From assembly GCA_002691145.1 (NCBI GenBank), contig NZHE01000023.1:1-64000 (forward strand): 64,000 nucleotides of DNA, written 5' to 3'. The position numbers and the translations under genes are program-made. Below the pieces are notes generated by a model, which saw only the letters and a list, made by a program, of their open reading frames with translations, made no database searches and was not told the DNA's origin. This document shows positions 30,167 to 38,733 of the stretch, piece after piece (the first letter of the stretch is position 1; the number at the start of each line of letters is the position of its first letter). This stretch comes from Rickettsiales bacterium. GTDB taxonomy: Bacteria > Pseudomonadota > Alphaproteobacteria > Methylaequorales > Methylaequoraceae.

Positions 30167-30913
30167 ATGGTAGTTAAAAGAAAAATTTCAGGAATAATAA
30201 TCATTGGTGATGAGATTTTATCAGGAAAAACTCTCGATACAAACTCAAACTACATCTCTAAGGAATTAGGGTTGCGAGGCATCGATGTTAAAGAGATTTC
30301 GATAATCAATGATGATAAAAAAATAATAATAAATAAAACCTTGGAATTTTCAGGGAAATTTGACTATGTATTTACGACAGGTGGGATCGGGCCAACTCAT
30401 GATGATTTAACGACCGAAGCAATATCTACGGCATTTGATAAAGTTTTAGAACTTAATGAAGAGGCTCACTCATATCTAAAAAAACATTACACACAGGATG
30501 AACTTACCAAAGCAAGACTGAAAATGGCTTACTTACCAAAAGGAAGTAAATTAATATTAAACCCAGTAAGTTTAGCACCTGGTTTTTATATTAAAAATGT
30601 ATATGTTTTTCCAGGTGTGCCTGAGATATTAAAGGCCATGTTTTTTGAATTTATTGATAAGTTTTCTGATAAGGATATTATGCCTCAAATAAATATTTCA
30701 ACTTTGCTTTCTGAGGGTGTGATAGCTGATTATATTAAATCTATCCAACAAGAAAATCCTAAAGTTTCCATAGGAAGCTATCCATACTTTAAAAGTAATT
30801 TATTTGGAGTTTCATTAATTTTAAAAAGCCAGGACAAAGATTTGCTCCAAAACGTTGGTGAACAGATTTTTTATTTTCTCGACAAAAAAAAAGGAAAGCC
30901 TAAGTATTTTTAA
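30167..30913 (+). CDS. Molybdopterin-binding (MoCF/CinA N-terminal-like) protein
   Basis: IIIGDEILSGKTLDTNSNYISKELGLRGIDV...FTTGGIGPTHDDLTTEAI...VFPGVPEILKAMF. Confidence 0.88.
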   Translation: MVVKRKISGIIIIGDEILSGKTLDTNSNYISKELGLRGIDVKEISIINDDKKIIINKTLEFSGKFDYVFTTGGIGPTHDDLTTEAISTAFDKVLELNEEAHSYLKKHYTQDELTKARLKMAYLPKGSKLILNPVSLAPGFYIKNVYVFPGVPEILKAMFFEFIDKFSDKDIMPQINISTLLSEGVIADYIKSIQQENPKVSIGSYPYFKSNLFGVSLILKSQDKDLLQNVGEQIFYFLDKKKGKPKYF

Positions 30914-31389: not shown

Positions 31390-31832
31390 TGATTAATGAA
31401 ATATTCCCATATTTTTTATACTTTTTAGTAATCTTATTTTATTTAGCTTCTATTAGAAATAAAGAAAAAAAAAATATCTATGAAAGTAAATCTAGAGAAA
31501 AATTTTTAAATGTAGAATCTTTTCTTCTGGACGCTGAGAAAAAATTATTAGCTCTTAAGGAATTATATCAACAAGAATTAATAAATTATGAATTATATTT
31601 AATTAAATCTAATCTTATTGGAGATTCAGTTAAAAAATATATAAATTATGATAACTTGCAAATTGATAAATACAAAAATAAAAGAGTAATTGATGATCTT
31701 AAAATAGAATTAACAAGTAGAATTAAAAAAGAGAAAATGGTTCAAATAAAAAATATAGATTTTGATTCAGCATTAGATTCTATTGACCAAAAAATAAGAA
31801 AAAAAGAGAAAGAGTTTAAAAATGAAGCCTGA
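31390..31832 (+). CDS. Hypothetical single-TM, coiled-coil-like protein
   Basis: MINEIFPYFLYFLVILFYLASIRNKEKK... followed by a charged helical region; start chosen at internal ATG 31390 within ORF 31296-31832. Confidence 0.55.
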
Positions 31833-32064
31833 TAATAAAAAATTAATAGATGATGTGAAGAACCATCTTAAAATTAAAAAAAATAAAAAAGAGATAGTAA
31901 GTAATAAAAGGCCAGATGATTTGATAGAAAAGCTTTCAAATAGCCAAATTAAAGTAGCAGAAAAAATCATTGAGAAAGAGGTAAAAGCATGGATAAATTG
32001 CAATGCTTTGAATCTCTCAAAAGAATTAATATCTAAAGAAATAGACAAAAAATTTAAAAAATAA
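31822..32064 (+). CDS. Small protein resembling the PopZ (DUF2497) C-terminal domain
   Basis: VAEKIIEKEVKAWINCNALNLSKELISKEIDKKFKK is similar in pattern to the PopZ C-terminal helices (WLDxNLPxLVExLVxxEIxR). Confidence 0.5.
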   Translation: MKPDNKKLIDDVKNHLKIKKNKKEIVSNKRPDDLIEKLSNSQIKVAEKIIEKEVKAWINCNALNLSKELISKEIDKKFKK

Positions 32065-32112
32065 ACATTTTTTTATGGCACAATAATTGCTCTTTTTTGT
32101 AAAGGTGGTTAT

Positions 32113-33093
32113 ATGAAGCTTTTAATAACAAATATTGTTTATGGGCAAGTTTATGCTGGAATATTTTTAAATCAACATTTAAAAAGCATATTAGATAAAT
32201 CTAATCTTCCTTCAATTGTGCCTGATTGTGAAGTTAAATATATTTTATATACTGATCATCATACAAAGTTTCTCATTGAATATCATCCAATGTGGATAGC
32301 TTTATCCAAGTTAGTTAAAACAGAAATAAAATTTTTTGATACAAACCTAACATTTGAAGGTCGTTATACGTATTTGAGATCAATGTTGATAGATTCCATG
32401 AAAATAGCAATGGAAGGGGATTATATACTATCACCTATTGTAGCTGATTTATATTTTGCAAAAGATTTTTACCCTAGGATTTTGAAAAGATTTAAAGAAG
32501 GATATGATTCAGTCTTAGTCACTGGAATGCGAAGTTCTGCTGAAGCAATGATACCTAGATTAAATCAATCGCAAGGTGCACTAACTGATATGGAACTTTT
32601 TGATTATGGCTATGAATGTCTCCATCCTTTGTGGGTGGCATGTCATTGGGATGCTGTCCAATTTTCAAGAATACCTTATGTCCTACTTTGGAATGCATAC
32701 CCTGGTTTTATGTTACGAGCTTTTTCAGTTACCCCTATAGCATTTATTCCAAATAGTGAAATGTTAGATTGCAATATGATTGATGCAGATGTCCCTTATC
32801 ACTGTAAGAAACCATTTTGGGCTTTGGACTGGGTTGATGCACCAGTTATGGGAATAGAGCCATTAGAGTGTTTCTATCCACCTTTCAGTAACCACAAAGC
32901 TACCACCAAATACGTTGGAATAGATTTCGCAAGTAAAGCAATTAACCCAAAGCAATATGATTTTTTGAAAGTCAAAAGTTATTTTCCATGTAAGGAAAGA
33001 GTAAAATTAAGTGATAAGCAAATCAAACAATCAGATAACGTGGTTAAAGAAATATTAGAGTACGTTGAATCTTCAAAACGCAAAGCTTCATAA
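32113..33093 (+). CDS. Uncharacterised protein, copy 1 of a tandem paralog pair (glycosyltransferase-like architecture possible)
   Basis: Intact 326 aa ORF sharing extended blocks with the next ORF. Confidence 0.8.
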   Translation: MKLLITNIVYGQVYAGIFLNQHLKSILDKSNLPSIVPDCEVKYILYTDHHTKFLIEYHPMWIALSKLVKTEIKFFDTNLTFEGRYTYLRSMLIDSMKIAMEGDYILSPIVADLYFAKDFYPRILKRFKEGYDSVLVTGMRSSAEAMIPRLNQSQGALTDMELFDYGYECLHPLWVACHWDAVQFSRIPYVLLWNAYPGFMLRAFSVTPIAFIPNSEMLDCNMIDADVPYHCKKPFWALDWVDAPVMGIEPLECFYPPFSNHKATTKYVGIDFASKAINPKQYDFLKVKSYFPCKERVKLSDKQIKQSDNVVKEILEYVESSKRKAS

Positions 33094-34105
33094 AATGAAA
33101 AGTTTAAAGAAAAAGTACATAATTACAAATATTTTATACGGAAATATGTACACTGATATATTTTTAAATCACCACTTAAAAAGCTTAGCAGACATTTCCA
33201 ACATACCCAATATCAGCAAAGAATTTCAAATACAATATGTACTGTATATAGACAAATTTAATCTTCCAATTGTAGAAAAAAATTTTTATACAAAAAAATT
33301 AAGTGAGCTTATACGCTTTGAATTTCAAATTGTAGATTTAGCTGAAAAGAATTGGAATTATGAGTCTAGGTACGGAGTTTTAGAAAACACACTTCAAGAC
33401 GGATTGAAACGGGCTATTTCTGAAAACGCACTTTTTAGTCCATTATGTGCTGATTTAGTAGTTGCAAAGAACTTCTTTTCTAAAATCACTAAAAAAATAG
33501 AAGAAGGATATGATTCAGTCAATGTTTTACCAATGAGAACGGCTGCCGAACCGATGACTCAGTTTTTAAATCAACATAATGGTGCTTTAAGTGATATGGA
33601 TCTTTTTGAATATGGATATGCATGTCTTCATCCACTTTGGGGTGCATGCCACTGGGATTCTCCTCAATTTTCAAAACTTCCTATCTGCTTCATATGGAAT
33701 ACATATCCAGGTATGTTTGTTAGGTCATTTTCAATCAGCCCAACAATCTTTATTCCAAACAAAAAAATGCTTAATTGTAAAATGATAGATGTGGACGTAT
33801 TACAATTTTTAAATAATCCATTCTTAGCAGAAAACTGGACTGATTGTCCAATCATCAATGTTGAACCAATAAGATGTTTTTATCCTGCTTTTAAAAATAA
33901 AAAAGCTAATTCTTTAAACTGTGCAAAAGATATTTCTAAAAATTTCGTTGCTAAGTTAGCAAAGTGCCAAATTCCTTACATAAAAAATAAATTATATTAT
34001 CCTAATAAAAAATGTGTAAAAATATCATCTAAAAAGGTAAAACAGTCTAACGATGTTGTAAGAACTCTTTTAGAGAATTATAACAGTCAAAAGGAAGTAT
34101 CATAA
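33065..34105 (+). CDS. Uncharacterised protein, copy 2 of a tandem paralog pair (likely start ATG 33095)
   Basis: Shared blocks: ITNI.YG..Y..IFLN.HLKS, EGYDSV.V..MR..AE.M, LNQ..GAL.DM.LF.YGY.CLHPLW.ACHWD..QFS. Confidence 0.8.
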   Translation: MNLQNAKLHKMKSLKKKYIITNILYGNMYTDIFLNHHLKSLADISNIPNISKEFQIQYVLYIDKFNLPIVEKNFYTKKLSELIRFEFQIVDLAEKNWNYESRYGVLENTLQDGLKRAISENALFSPLCADLVVAKNFFSKITKKIEEGYDSVNVLPMRTAAEPMTQFLNQHNGALSDMDLFEYGYACLHPLWGACHWDSPQFSKLPICFIWNTYPGMFVRSFSISPTIFIPNKKMLNCKMIDVDVLQFLNNPFLAENWTDCPIINVEPIRCFYPAFKNKKANSLNCAKDISKNFVAKLAKCQIPYIKNKLYYPNKKCVKISSKKVKQSNDVVRTLLENYNSQKEVS

Positions 34106-34186
34106 TTTTTCTCATCTTTAATTAAATTTGCAATAAGAGATAAAATGATATAATGATCTTAATATTATTTTTACTTTTTAATACTA

Positions 34187-35056
34187 ATGCAAAATCTAAA
34201 AAATTTGTTATTTAAATTAAGGTTTAGCCATTTTTTCTTAAAAGTTTACTATTATTCAAAGAAATTTATTTCAAATTATAATAATTTTAAATTCTGTAAA
34301 AAAGAAACTATAAAAAGATCGGTTGGATTCAAAAAAGTTGAATTAAAAAATAATAAAGTATTAGAGGAGGCAATATTATTTTCAAAAAAAAAGTTTGATT
34401 TTTCGTATATGAAAAAAAATGCAATAAAAACTGATCTAAAGAAAGATTTTCTTAACATTTGCGAATTTAGTGTTTTAGATTTTGAACCACTTAAAAATTT
34501 AGCAATTGAAAAAAATATAATTGAAATTTCTTCAAATTATTTAAGAACTCAACCTATTCTGTATAGTTCTACGGTATGGTTAAGTAATTATGTAAAAGAG
34601 GAACCTTCTTCCTCACAACTTTATCACTTTGATAGAGAGGATTTATTTCAGCTAAAAGTTTTTATTCCTTTAGAACCAATTATAGAAAGTTCAGGTCCGT
34701 TATCTGTAATATCTTCAAAGCAAAGTTCAGAATTTATTTGGAATAATCTTAAAAAATTCAAAATTATTACTCTGAAAGATAGAATTTGTGATAATGAAAT
34801 AAACAATAATATCAAAAATTTACAAGAATCTTCTCAAATTGCAAACCCTGGACAACTTATATTTGTTGATACTACAAACTGTTTGCATTATGGGAGCAGG
34901 TATTCCAAAAGTATTAAATATCACTTATCTTTCCAATATATTTCACCTTTCTCAGAAAGATTAAATTCTTTTATGAAAAGTTTTAAAAAGAATGAATATT
35001 CAAATAGTTTAGATACATTGAGTTATGTTGAATGGAAATATCACAATCAAACCTAA
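34187..35056 (+). CDS. Phytanoyl-CoA dioxygenase (PhyH)-like Fe(II)/2OG oxygenase
   Basis: YHFDREDLFQLKVFIPLEPIIESSGPLSVI...PGQLIFVDTTNCLHYGSRYSKSIKYHLSFQY (HxD...H...R arrangement). Confidence 0.7.
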   Translation: MQNLKNLLFKLRFSHFFLKVYYYSKKFISNYNNFKFCKKETIKRSVGFKKVELKNNKVLEEAILFSKKKFDFSYMKKNAIKTDLKKDFLNICEFSVLDFEPLKNLAIEKNIIEISSNYLRTQPILYSSTVWLSNYVKEEPSSSQLYHFDREDLFQLKVFIPLEPIIESSGPLSVISSKQSSEFIWNNLKKFKIITLKDRICDNEINNNIKNLQESSQIANPGQLIFVDTTNCLHYGSRYSKSIKYHLSFQYISPFSERLNSFMKSFKKNEYSNSLDTLSYVEWKYHNQT

Positions 35057-36132
35057 TCTTGAATTTTTTTTCCTTGGTTAAGTTTAATAAATTGGTTTAT
35101 GTTATTTATATTTAAATACTGATTTATCTCATTATCAATTTCAGATAATTTAGCTAACATCCTCGCTGAAACCGTTTGTCCATAAGAATATGGGTTCAAA
35201 AACTCTGAATCACTTGTATTTAATTCAGAAGGATCGGTAAAATAAAATATACTCTTGTTTAGTTTTAAATTAAATAGTTTCTTTGATTTTTCAATGTAAA
35301 AACTCTTTTGTTTTTTTTTCATTTCTTTATAGATTGATGGTGCAAACGGAGGAACAATTATTATTGCTTTACTTCCATATTTTTCAACTAAATCAATAAA
35401 TTTAATTAATGAATTAATATTTTCCTTATTTACTTTTGGAGATGTATTCAATTCAATGGAATTTTTTAAATCATCCTTATTATATTCAAAATTGATAGAT
35501 GTATTTCCATAATGCCATGAACCATCTTTTTTTGTTCCGTGTTTATCTTTTGCTAGAGCTCTCAGTCCTATAGGACACTTATCTTTCCTTTTCAGGATTG
35601 TTAAAAACTCTGAAAAATTCAAGTCACCTCTGTAGATCCATACATATGGTAAATACAATTTGTAAATAAGAGATGTCCACCTTCTTAAAAGAAAAAACTT
35701 ATTCTGAGATCCCGTATTATCTAAATTTGATAACCACCATGGATCAATTGTTAAAATAACCACCTCGGGCGAAAAAATCTCAAAAACTTTATTAATTTCG
35801 TAAATTGAATTTTTTGAACTCGAAATATACTGACCAAGAACATAACTTGTCATAGAAAAAAAATCTCCACTATAATTATTTGCAGTTCCTGGCCCTGTAA
35901 CAACTATTTTAGGTCGAATCTGTTTTATCACTTCATAACCAAGTTCCCATTTTTGAATTCCAGCTGAAACTTGTTGAACCACACATTCATCCGAGTTTAT
36001 CTGAATTAACGCTGAATTTTGTGCATTTGAATATTCACCTGCTTTAAATTGAAAAAAAATTGAGGGTAAACTTATAAATAAAAAGATAATAAAAACAATA
36101 ATTATTCCATATATAAACTTTTTAATTTCCAT
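35053..36132 (-). CDS. AlgJ/SGNH-hydrolase-like membrane-anchored protein, MBOAT partner
   Basis: N-terminal TM; adjacent to MBOAT; VVILTIDPWWLSN, AIIIVPPFAPS. Confidence 0.55.
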   Translation of the reverse strand: MEIKKFIYGIIIVFIIFLFISLPSIFFQFKAGEYSNAQNSALIQINSDECVVQQVSAGIQKWELGYEVIKQIRPKIVVTGPGTANNYSGDFFSMTSYVLGQYISSSKNSIYEINKVFEIFSPEVVILTIDPWWLSNLDNTGSQNKFFLLRRWTSLIYKLYLPYVWIYRGDLNFSEFLTILKRKDKCPIGLRALAKDKHGTKKDGSWHYGNTSINFEYNKDDLKNSIELNTSPKVNKENINSLIKFIDLVEKYGSKAIIIVPPFAPSIYKEMKKKQKSFYIEKSKKLFNLKLNKSIFYFTDPSELNTSDSEFLNPYSYGQTVSARMLAKLSEIDNEINQYLNINNINQFIKLNQGKKIQD

Positions 36133-36134
36133 TT

Positions 36135-37693
36135 TTAAAAGCTAAAATATAAAAAGTCCACAGTGATATTTGACCAAAAAATTGAGGTGCTTAGAATTAA
36201 AAGGCATGTTACAAACACTCCGTTGCTAAAACTTAGTTTAAAATTAGTTCCATTATTATTTTTGTTTAAAAAGTTGAATCTTTCCATATTATTAGAGAAA
36301 AAATATATTATTATAACTGATATTGATAAAATAATGAATACTTCAGAATTTAGATTACCAAGCCAACCCAATCCGCTAGGTGGATAAGAAAATATTTTTT
36401 CAAAAATTGGAAAATTTTCAATTAATCTTGGAGTCATTTGAACTCCATTTAGTCCCAACATAGATTTAAAGATTACGACGGCACTAGAAACTGAATCCGA
36501 TCTAAATAAAACCCAACCAAAATTTACCGATAGAGTTGTAATTAAGAATGATATAATTTTTATGTGCAGCTGTTCCATATTTAAAATTTTATATTCTCTA
36601 TTGTAAACTTTAAATACGTGATTTATGCATACTAATATACCGTGATAAATTCCCCATAGTATAAATGTATACCCAGCTCCATGCCAAAACCCGCTTATAA
36701 AAAAAGTAATCATTATTGGAAAAATTATAAAATAAAAAGTTTGCCTAGGATTCTTTAAATTTAAAAAAGAGTCCTTTTGAATAAAACCTTTAAATGGTTT
36801 ATAAATATAGTTTTTTAAAAAATCAGAGAGAGAAATATGCCATCTTCTCCAAAAGTCAATTATACTAAGTGATTTGTAAGGAGAATTAAAATTTATTGGA
36901 AGGATCACACCAAACATTAAACCTAAACCCAGTGCCATGTCACAGTATCCAGAAAAATCAAAATATAGTTGAAACATATAGCAAAAAGATCCAATCCAGG
37001 CCTCAAAAAACAATGGATTATGTCCATTTGCTACAGATTCAAATAAATTAGAGGCAAAAAGATTTAAATGATCTGCAATAAAAACTTTTTTAAAAAGACC
37101 TAGAACAAACAAACTTATTCCAAATAACAATTTGGATAAATTGAACTTACCAAAATTTTTATCAGCATATTGTTTTAGGGCAAATTTTTGTTGAACTATT
37201 GGACCTGCAATTAATTGTGGAAAAAAAACTACAAAAAGAAAATATTCTAAAAAATTATGTTTTGAGGTTTCTGATTTGTATGAGTCAACCAAATAAGAAA
37301 TTTGTTGAAAAGTAAAAAAAGAAATTGCTAAGGGTAAGATAACTCCCTTGAAATTAATGCCATGTAAAATAAAGTTATTTAAATTTAAAATAATAAAATC
37401 AGTGTATTTAAAAAAGCTCAGTAACAAAATATTGAAAGTTATGCCTAAAACTAAAATTTTTTTTTTTATGATTTTGGGAATTACATATAAGCGTTCCAAA
37501 AAAGTAATTAGTAATAATTGATCCAATTAATAAAAATACATATTCAATTTTCCAATATCCGTAAAATAACAACGAAGAAATGCACAAAACAATAATTGAA
37601 GAATTTCTTCCCAAGAATTTATGACATAAAAAAAAAAATAATTAATGTTATAGGCAAAAATATGTAAATAAATTCTATTGAAGAGAATGACAT
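36135..37693 (-). pseudogene. MBOAT family O-acyltransferase (AlgI-like), interrupted by two homopolymer frameshifts
   Basis: Frames: MSFSSIEFIYIFLPITLIIFFF (start 37693) | LCHKFLGRNSSIIVLCISSLLFYGYWKIEYVFLLIGSIITNYFFGTLI | KKILVLGITFNILLLSFFKYTDF...; catalytic-type FWHGAGYTFILWG. Confidence 0.8.
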
Positions 37694-37851
37694 ATATTTA
37701 TTATACAAAATCTTTATTTAATACTAAAGATCTGTTTTCTTACTTAATAAGAAATCTTGAACACTTTCAAAGAAGCATTAAAATTGAGATAACATATATT
37801 ATTTAAAAAAAAGATAATTTTTATTTTCTTCAATTTAGAATATTTACAACA

Positions 37852-37879
37852 TTGAAATAAATAAAAATGATAATATACT
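37852..37879 (+). promoter_or_regulatory. Candidate sigma70-type promoter for tRNA-Leu
   Basis: TTGAAA - 16 bp - TATACT, about 25 bp upstream of the mature tRNA 5' end. Confidence 0.45.
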
Positions 37880-37904
37880 CATAGAAATTTATTTAGTTTG
37901 AATT

Positions 37905-37992
37905 GCGCTCGTGCTGAAATTGGTAAACAGACTGGACTTAAAATCCAGCGGAGTCTGACTCCTTGTCGGTTCAAGTCCGACCGAGCGCACCA
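37905..37992 (+). tRNA. tRNA-Leu (anticodon TAA), CCA encoded
   Basis: GCGCTCG/CGAGCGC acceptor, CTGGA-CTTAAAA-TCCAG anticodon arm, long variable arm, GTCGG-TTCAAGT-CCGAC T arm, terminal CCA. Confidence 0.96.
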
Positions 37993-38016
37993 TTAGATTT
38001 TTTTGTTTTATTAATT

Positions 38017-38733
38017 ATGTTTAAATTTTCTTTTATTTTTTTAATTTTCATCTTTAATTTATCTTTTTCCAATGAGAGAACTATTCAAAATGATTTTGAT
38101 AATAAAATTAAAAATTTTATTCTAAAAAACCCAGAGGTAATTATTAAATCACTCAAGATTTATGAGGAAAATCAAGCAAAAGAAGAAGAGAAGGAAAAAA
38201 ATAAATTTATTTCTGAAAATTCTGAAGAAATTTATAAAAGTAATGGAAATTTATATGATGGGAAAGTGGATTCGGATTTAATAATTGTTGAATATTTTGA
38301 TTACAATTGTGGATATTGTAAGAAATTTCATCAGGAACTTAGGTCTGCTTTGAAAGAGGAACAAAATCTTAAAGTTGTGTATAAGAATTTACCTGTTCTT
38401 TCTGAAAATTCAAAATTTTTGGCGAAAATTTCGATTGCAATTGGTCTTACAAGCAATAAAAATTTTCTTAGTTTTCATGAGTTTGTAATGAACTCAAAAA
38501 AGCAAATAAAGGAAAATGATTTAAAAATGAAGATTCAAAATTTGAATCTAGATTACTCTAAAATATTGGAACTATCGAAATCAAAAGAAATAGAAAAAAT
38601 AATCGAAAAAAACTTTATTCAAGCTAACAGTCTCGGCATTAGAGGTACGCCAGCGATAGTTGTAAAAAATGAAGTAATTGAGGGATATGTTAGTAGAAAA
38701 TTAATTAGATCGCTTTTACAAACTCAACAATAA
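38017..38733 (+). CDS. DsbA family thioredoxin-domain protein
   Basis: Signal peptide from ATG 38017; IIVEYFDYNCGYCKKFHQEL (CGYC), IRGTPAIVV; the ORF-track start lies inside the tRNA and is rejected. Confidence 0.92.
   Translation: MFKFSFIFLIFIFNLSFSNERTIQNDFDNKIKNFILKNPEVIIKSLKIYEENQAKEEEKEKNKFISENSEEIYKSNGNLYDGKVDSDLIIVEYFDYNCGYCKKFHQELRSALKEEQNLKVVYKNLPVLSENSKFLAKISIAIGLTSNKNFLSFHEFVMNSKKQIKENDLKMKIQNLNLDYSKILELSKSKEIEKIIEKNFIQANSLGIRGTPAIVVKNEVIEGYVSRKLIRSLLQTQQ

Follow-up and report, generated by a model that had tools for sequence, protein, structure and literature searches.

The closest described systems to the tandem gene pair considered here, which lies in a window of 64,000 nucleotides (i.e., the whole stretch of DNA that was analysed), are glycosyltransferases. 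The GT2 family and AvpGT, a nucleoside 3'-O-glucosyltransferase (PDB 9JN3 and 9JMA), have the GT-A fold, AvpGT being the best PDB match of both models of family members, but they differ by an identity of 11-14%, by the absence of any GT2 Pfam match, by an incomplete DXD motif in the window family, and by another genomic context. The bacterial GT6 enzymes, represented by BoGT6a, are also matched through their GT-A fold, and BoGT6a is likewise devoid of a DXD motif and works independently of metal (PMC7185993; PMC3961637), whereas neither a profile search of the PDB sequences nor the GT6 Pfam model reveals any sequence similarity. The GT25-like COLGALT1 is the second-best PDB match, with about 155 aligned columns at an rmsd of 3.3-3.6, although the N-terminal nucleotide-binding half alone aligns and COLGALT1 is a eukaryotic collagen enzyme. 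Finally, TIGR04372 glycosyltransferases are encoded close to family members both in Solidesulfovibrio and in the genomic island of a third copy, but they constitute a separate family to which the window proteins show no match; a literature search on TIGR04372 found nothing on it. No family-level similarity to characterised GT6, GT25, or other CAZy families was obtained by PDB sequence profile search, Pfam, or NCBIfam.

Taken together, the homology, predicted fold, and invariant residues, along with the island and the glycan context of the family, make it very likely that the pair encodes GT-A glycosyltransferases, whose catalytic activity we infer, and that these add sugars to a strain-variable surface glycan. 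The N-terminal alpha/beta half would bind the nucleotide-sugar, with Asp112 taking the place of the DXD motif, the sugar would pass to the growing surface glycan, and the C-terminal half would hold the acceptor. Both genes are carried as cargo in a variable surface-glycan island, in which an O-acyltransferase is encoded as well (Table 1). The two copies may act on successive or related acceptors; a division of labour, by two related substrates or by successive transfers, would be a sensible guess, if somewhat less than an even one. The fold and the role are of familiar kinds; the family has no name, and its donor-site motif is atypical.

Table 1. Features of the tandem pair, of the variable site, and of its flanks (positions in the window)
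Feature	Position	Strand	Remarks
Molybdopterin-binding-domain (CinA/MoaB-like) gene	30167..30913	+	Conserved left flank; syntenic in relatives
Small conserved gene	31822..32064	+	80 aa; next to left edge of variable site; no Pfam match; several relatives have a similar gene in this position
Paralogue 1	32113..33093	+	326 aa; predicted GT-A-fold glycosyltransferase, unnamed family
Asp112 codon, paralogue 1	32446..32448	+	Invariant in 32 members; loop after the fourth strand
Paralogue 2	33095..34105	+	Same family as paralogue 1; 336 aa from ATG 33095, 346 aa from TTG 33065
Island gene	34187..35056	+	289 aa; by motif reading only, H-x-D...H, reminiscent of Fe(II)/2-oxoglutarate (PhyH-like) oxygenases
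Island gene	35053..36132	-	359 aa; no family match; adjoins the MBOAT gene
Membrane-bound O-acyltransferase (MBOAT/DltB/AlgI type)	36135..37526	-	PF03062, E 4e-29; same island
tRNA-Leu(taa)	37905..37992	+	Right edge of variable site
DsbA-like thioredoxin-fold gene	37963..38733	+	Conserved right flank; syntenic in relatives

The original prediction, made by a model from the bare DNA, described two overlapping tandem paralogues sharing conserved blocks. Both open reading frames are present, their products align from end to end at 45-47% identity (BLASTP: 149/329 identities, 45%, E 7e-108) with an alignment score of 782, where none of 300 shuffles exceeds 65, and the quoted blocks, among them ITNI.YG..Y..IFLN.HLKS, EGYDSV.V..MR..AE.M, and LHPLW.ACHWD, were recovered by alignment. 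Besides, the identity by codon position (56/69/43%) fits two diverged coding genes. While the adjacency of the two genes stands, their overlap does not, unless paralogue 2 starts at TTG 33065: the stop codon of the first gene occupies positions 33091-33093 and the ATG at 33095 of the second comes one base after, this ATG being favoured as the start since it fits the paralogue alignment. A ribosome-binding-site-like AAGGTGG is found just 5' of the ATG of paralogue 1. A third copy, 51% identical, is located elsewhere in the same genome (G000:C4:21157-22134, minus strand) and forms, together with the window pair, one clade (100/100) on a long stem, within which the tandem copies are weakly placed as nearest to each other (91/63). 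These tandem copies probably go back to a duplication inside this lineage. The region around the third copy (G000:C4:6000-40000; L004 / L005) is a large surface-glycan island in which NeuC, NeuB/PseI-like, and PseF-like genes occur together with several DegT-like aminotransferases and a pair of TPP-enzyme systems.

The statement that the pair belongs to no named family also holds, as the window proteins matched none of the Pfam, NCBIfam, and PHROG models and no direct match to a characterised family was found. When 20 family members were compared with Pfam, the best value for GT2 was 0.06, in one of the 20, and did not reach the cut-off. In addition, a profile search of all PDB sequences found no glycosyltransferase, and a comparison by hhalign with a small GT2 profile was without result (0.6%). 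Scanning viral and genome contigs for patterns of the window trio yielded no match, and no significant hit came from a tblastn search of annotated phages. A profile of the three copies detected distant relatives in 15 other alphaproteobacterial genomes, and the 20-row profile A2 extended the membership to 26 of 385 alphaproteobacterial genomes (about 7%, source genome included); for use in pattern scanning, A2 and a further profile, A3, had diverged too far. In the phylum-wide sample, members occur in 3 of 399 genomes, namely the source genome, another one of the class, and one outside the class. The named carriers include Azospirillum cavernae and metagenome-assembled genomes (MAGs) of Rhodospirillales/Rhodospirillaceae, together with an Acidobacteria MAG whose assignment may be a binning error. 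The plasmid pDCAR1 of Solidesulfovibrio carbinolicus carries two members close together, annotated only as 'hypothetical protein'. On this plasmid (L091:3831-14978), radical SAM, methyltransferase, RmlD-like, and family-member genes recur in two parallel sets, which give the appearance of a duplicated cassette. Two to five copies, often adjacent, are present in several genomes, and some relatives possess a C-terminal fasciclin domain. The family would add to the GT-A enzymes an unnamed branch that keeps one Asp of the DXD motif and extends across Alphaproteobacteria, Desulfovibrionia, an Acidobacteria MAG, and tailed phages. Since no library covers its members, and those of Solidesulfovibrio are labelled as hypothetical, its step is missing from surface-glycan predictions.

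As for the fold, the conserved middle blocks had been taken as a hint of a GT-A-like transferase, and the structure prediction and Foldseek comparison then proposed as a check agree with it, the models of two members matching folds of the GT-A superfamily in the PDB. The AlphaFold model of paralogue 1, built with seven sequences, has a pLDDT of 70 and a pTM of 0.72; residues 1-175 are mostly above 80 pLDDT, while residues 176-203 and 256-326 are below 50, so that its C-terminal half is not established. Its secondary structure (E2-8, H11-26, E40-47, H49-56, H59-67, E69-74, H81-102, E105-110) contains the Rossmann-like alternating beta/alpha N-terminal nucleotide-sugar domain expected of GT-A enzymes. 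Against the PDB, this model gives 131 matches at E <= 0.001, the best 50 of which are GT-A glycosyltransferases or related sugar-nucleotide transferases, with AvpGT (E 3e-6), COLGALT1 (1.4e-5), BoGT6a (7e-5), and SpsA (1e-4) among the matches, at TM-scores to the solved structures of only about 0.3-0.45. The second model, for which a Rhodospirillales member with 16% identity to the window protein was taken, also retrieves AvpGT first, followed by RmlA and RmlT.

Across the 32 members aligned, Gly11, Asn31, and Asp112 never vary, Trp193 is conserved in 97% and His171 in 94%, and both window copies keep the five residues. Asp112 follows the strand 105-110, where GT-A enzymes carry the DXD motif, a placement made by secondary structure and not by superposition. 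The motif itself is intact in none of the 32 members: they read [P/A/V/S/G]-D, the first Asp being missing and the second corresponding to D112. Candidates for the catalytic xED base, the G-loop glycine, and the metal-binding C-terminal His are E144 (72% E, 16% D), G198 (81%), and H171, respectively, but the C-terminal model is too poor to place them, and no xED base is assignable in the family. These gaps would suit proteins of which one or both are non-catalytic and assist another glycosyltransferase as its scaffold or partner, in the way that COSMC assists T-synthase, all the more since motif losses of this sort have been noted in GT-A proteins (PMC7185993) and since the tandem pairs common in the family would suit an active and an inactive partner. 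This is nevertheless improbable, as Asp112 persists in every member and each window copy keeps the invariant residues, so that neither looks dead. Moreover, GT14 and the bacterial GT6 enzymes have lost the DXD motif and are metal-independent yet active (PMC7185993), which indicates that such a loss does not exclude a GT-A fold.

The Rossmann-like core of the GT-A enzymes is also common to the sugar-nucleotide nucleotidyltransferases of the RmlA type, which would make the activated sugar instead of transferring it. In line with such an activity, the model of the distant member matches many RmlA chains (E about 1e-4), and that of paralogue 1 also lists RmlA-like and GDP-mannose pyrophosphorylase chains. 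The best match of both models is nevertheless a glycosyltransferase, AvpGT, and no nucleotidyltransferase Pfam model is matched. RmlA-type enzymes are marked by a G-x-G-x-R-L loop at their N terminus; this loop is absent from the window family, where ITNI.YG is its equivalent, and we regard a nucleotidyltransferase as very doubtful.

Turning back to the predicted glycosyltransferase pair, its genomic setting is that of a variable site, spanning positions 32065-37900 between the conserved flank genes and the tRNA-Leu. Both flanks co-occur in most sampled genomes of the organism's family, Methylaequoraceae, and the cargo consists here of the two paralogues, the 289-aa and 359-aa genes, and the MBOAT O-acyltransferase. 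In seven relatives the site is empty save for small conserved genes, while in others it is filled with unrelated cargo: a GT41/TPR protein (L044), a GT2 protein accompanied by methyltransferase and further genes (L041), a GT2-like protein (L047), or sugar-nucleotide genes, as judged by reading (L043). The paralogues are absent from all 31 other sampled genomes of the family. With flanks conserved, the site empty or differently filled in relatives, and no paralogue in these 31 genomes, the pair is variable cargo and not a retained core gene. The argument that retention of both diverged copies in a streamlined genome points to two related substrates is accordingly weak: the genome, at 2.03 Mb, is larger than those of the sampled relatives of its family (0.9-1.6 Mb, many of them incomplete), and tandem copies are common in the wider family. 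Surface glycans are targets of phage attack and belong to the most variable parts of marine bacterial genomes. Regarding the other cargo, the adjacency of the 359-aa gene to the MBOAT gene suggests that it encodes an acylation partner protein. The 289-aa gene had no match in a Pfam search, and its assignment to the same family as a PhyH gene near the third copy was rejected, the alignment score being no better than those of shuffles. In one relative (G006), a fasciclin-domain gene occupies the cargo site (L040:5787-6380).

Inspection of homologues and their neighbours, the other check initially proposed, shows that the members found by profile cluster with surface-polysaccharide genes, often in tandem. 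They are encountered among genes for Wzm/Wzt-type polysaccharide ABC exporters, GT2 proteins, sulfotransferases, radical SAM proteins, asnB-like proteins, and methyltransferases, some of which were assigned by reading. That the pair would act outside glycans, on a small molecule such as a nucleoside or a lipid, is highly implausible: AvpGT, the top PDB match, does glucosylate nucleosides (PMC11959488), but its likeness is at the fold level only, with 11% identity, the setting in the several other lineages whose contexts were examined is a surface-polysaccharide locus, and relatives carry genes for protein or glycan glycosylation at the corresponding site.

For the transfer of sugars to a surface glycan, the best lead to the donor sugar is the neighbourhood common to the third copy and Solidesulfovibrio. 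The third copy has a radical SAM/SPASM gene on one side and an RmlD-like gene on the other; PhyH, E1/transketolase, DegT-like, NeuC, NeuB/PseI-like, and TIGR04372 glycosyltransferase genes are nearby. In Solidesulfovibrio, the two members are accompanied by radical SAM/SPASM, RmlD-like, transketolase, and TIGR04372 genes, and the radical SAM/SPASM protein there shares 36% identity across 370 aa with its counterpart encoded next to the third copy.

The family also has a member in a tailed phage. An A5-pattern scan identified it on the IMG/VR contig IMGVR_UViG_3300050016_000100, with 25% identity to the A5 reference and an E of 2e-39 with A2. On this tailed-phage contig (L089:4983-10085), genes for the head maturation protease, the major head protein, and tail completion immediately precede the member, which is followed by an uncharacterised gene, E1/transketolase-like genes (two overlapping open reading frames), and a DegT aminotransferase. 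Tentatively, one may picture a GT-A family outside the protein-family libraries, with a metal-independent or single-Asp donor site and an unusual sugar to transfer; this donor would come from the partly conserved radical SAM/SPASM, RmlD-like reductase, and transketolase neighbourhood of the third-copy island and the Solidesulfovibrio plasmid, and from transketolase and DegT aminotransferase in the tailed phage. If so, phages would carry the transferase together with part of its donor pathway. By Foldseek, the viral structure nearest to the model of paralogue 1 is A0A6J5PWU5 (E 1.9e-17, TM 0.66, 260 columns), an uncharacterised protein of similar length from an uncultured Caudovirales phage, which at 21% identity is the nearest structural relative found.
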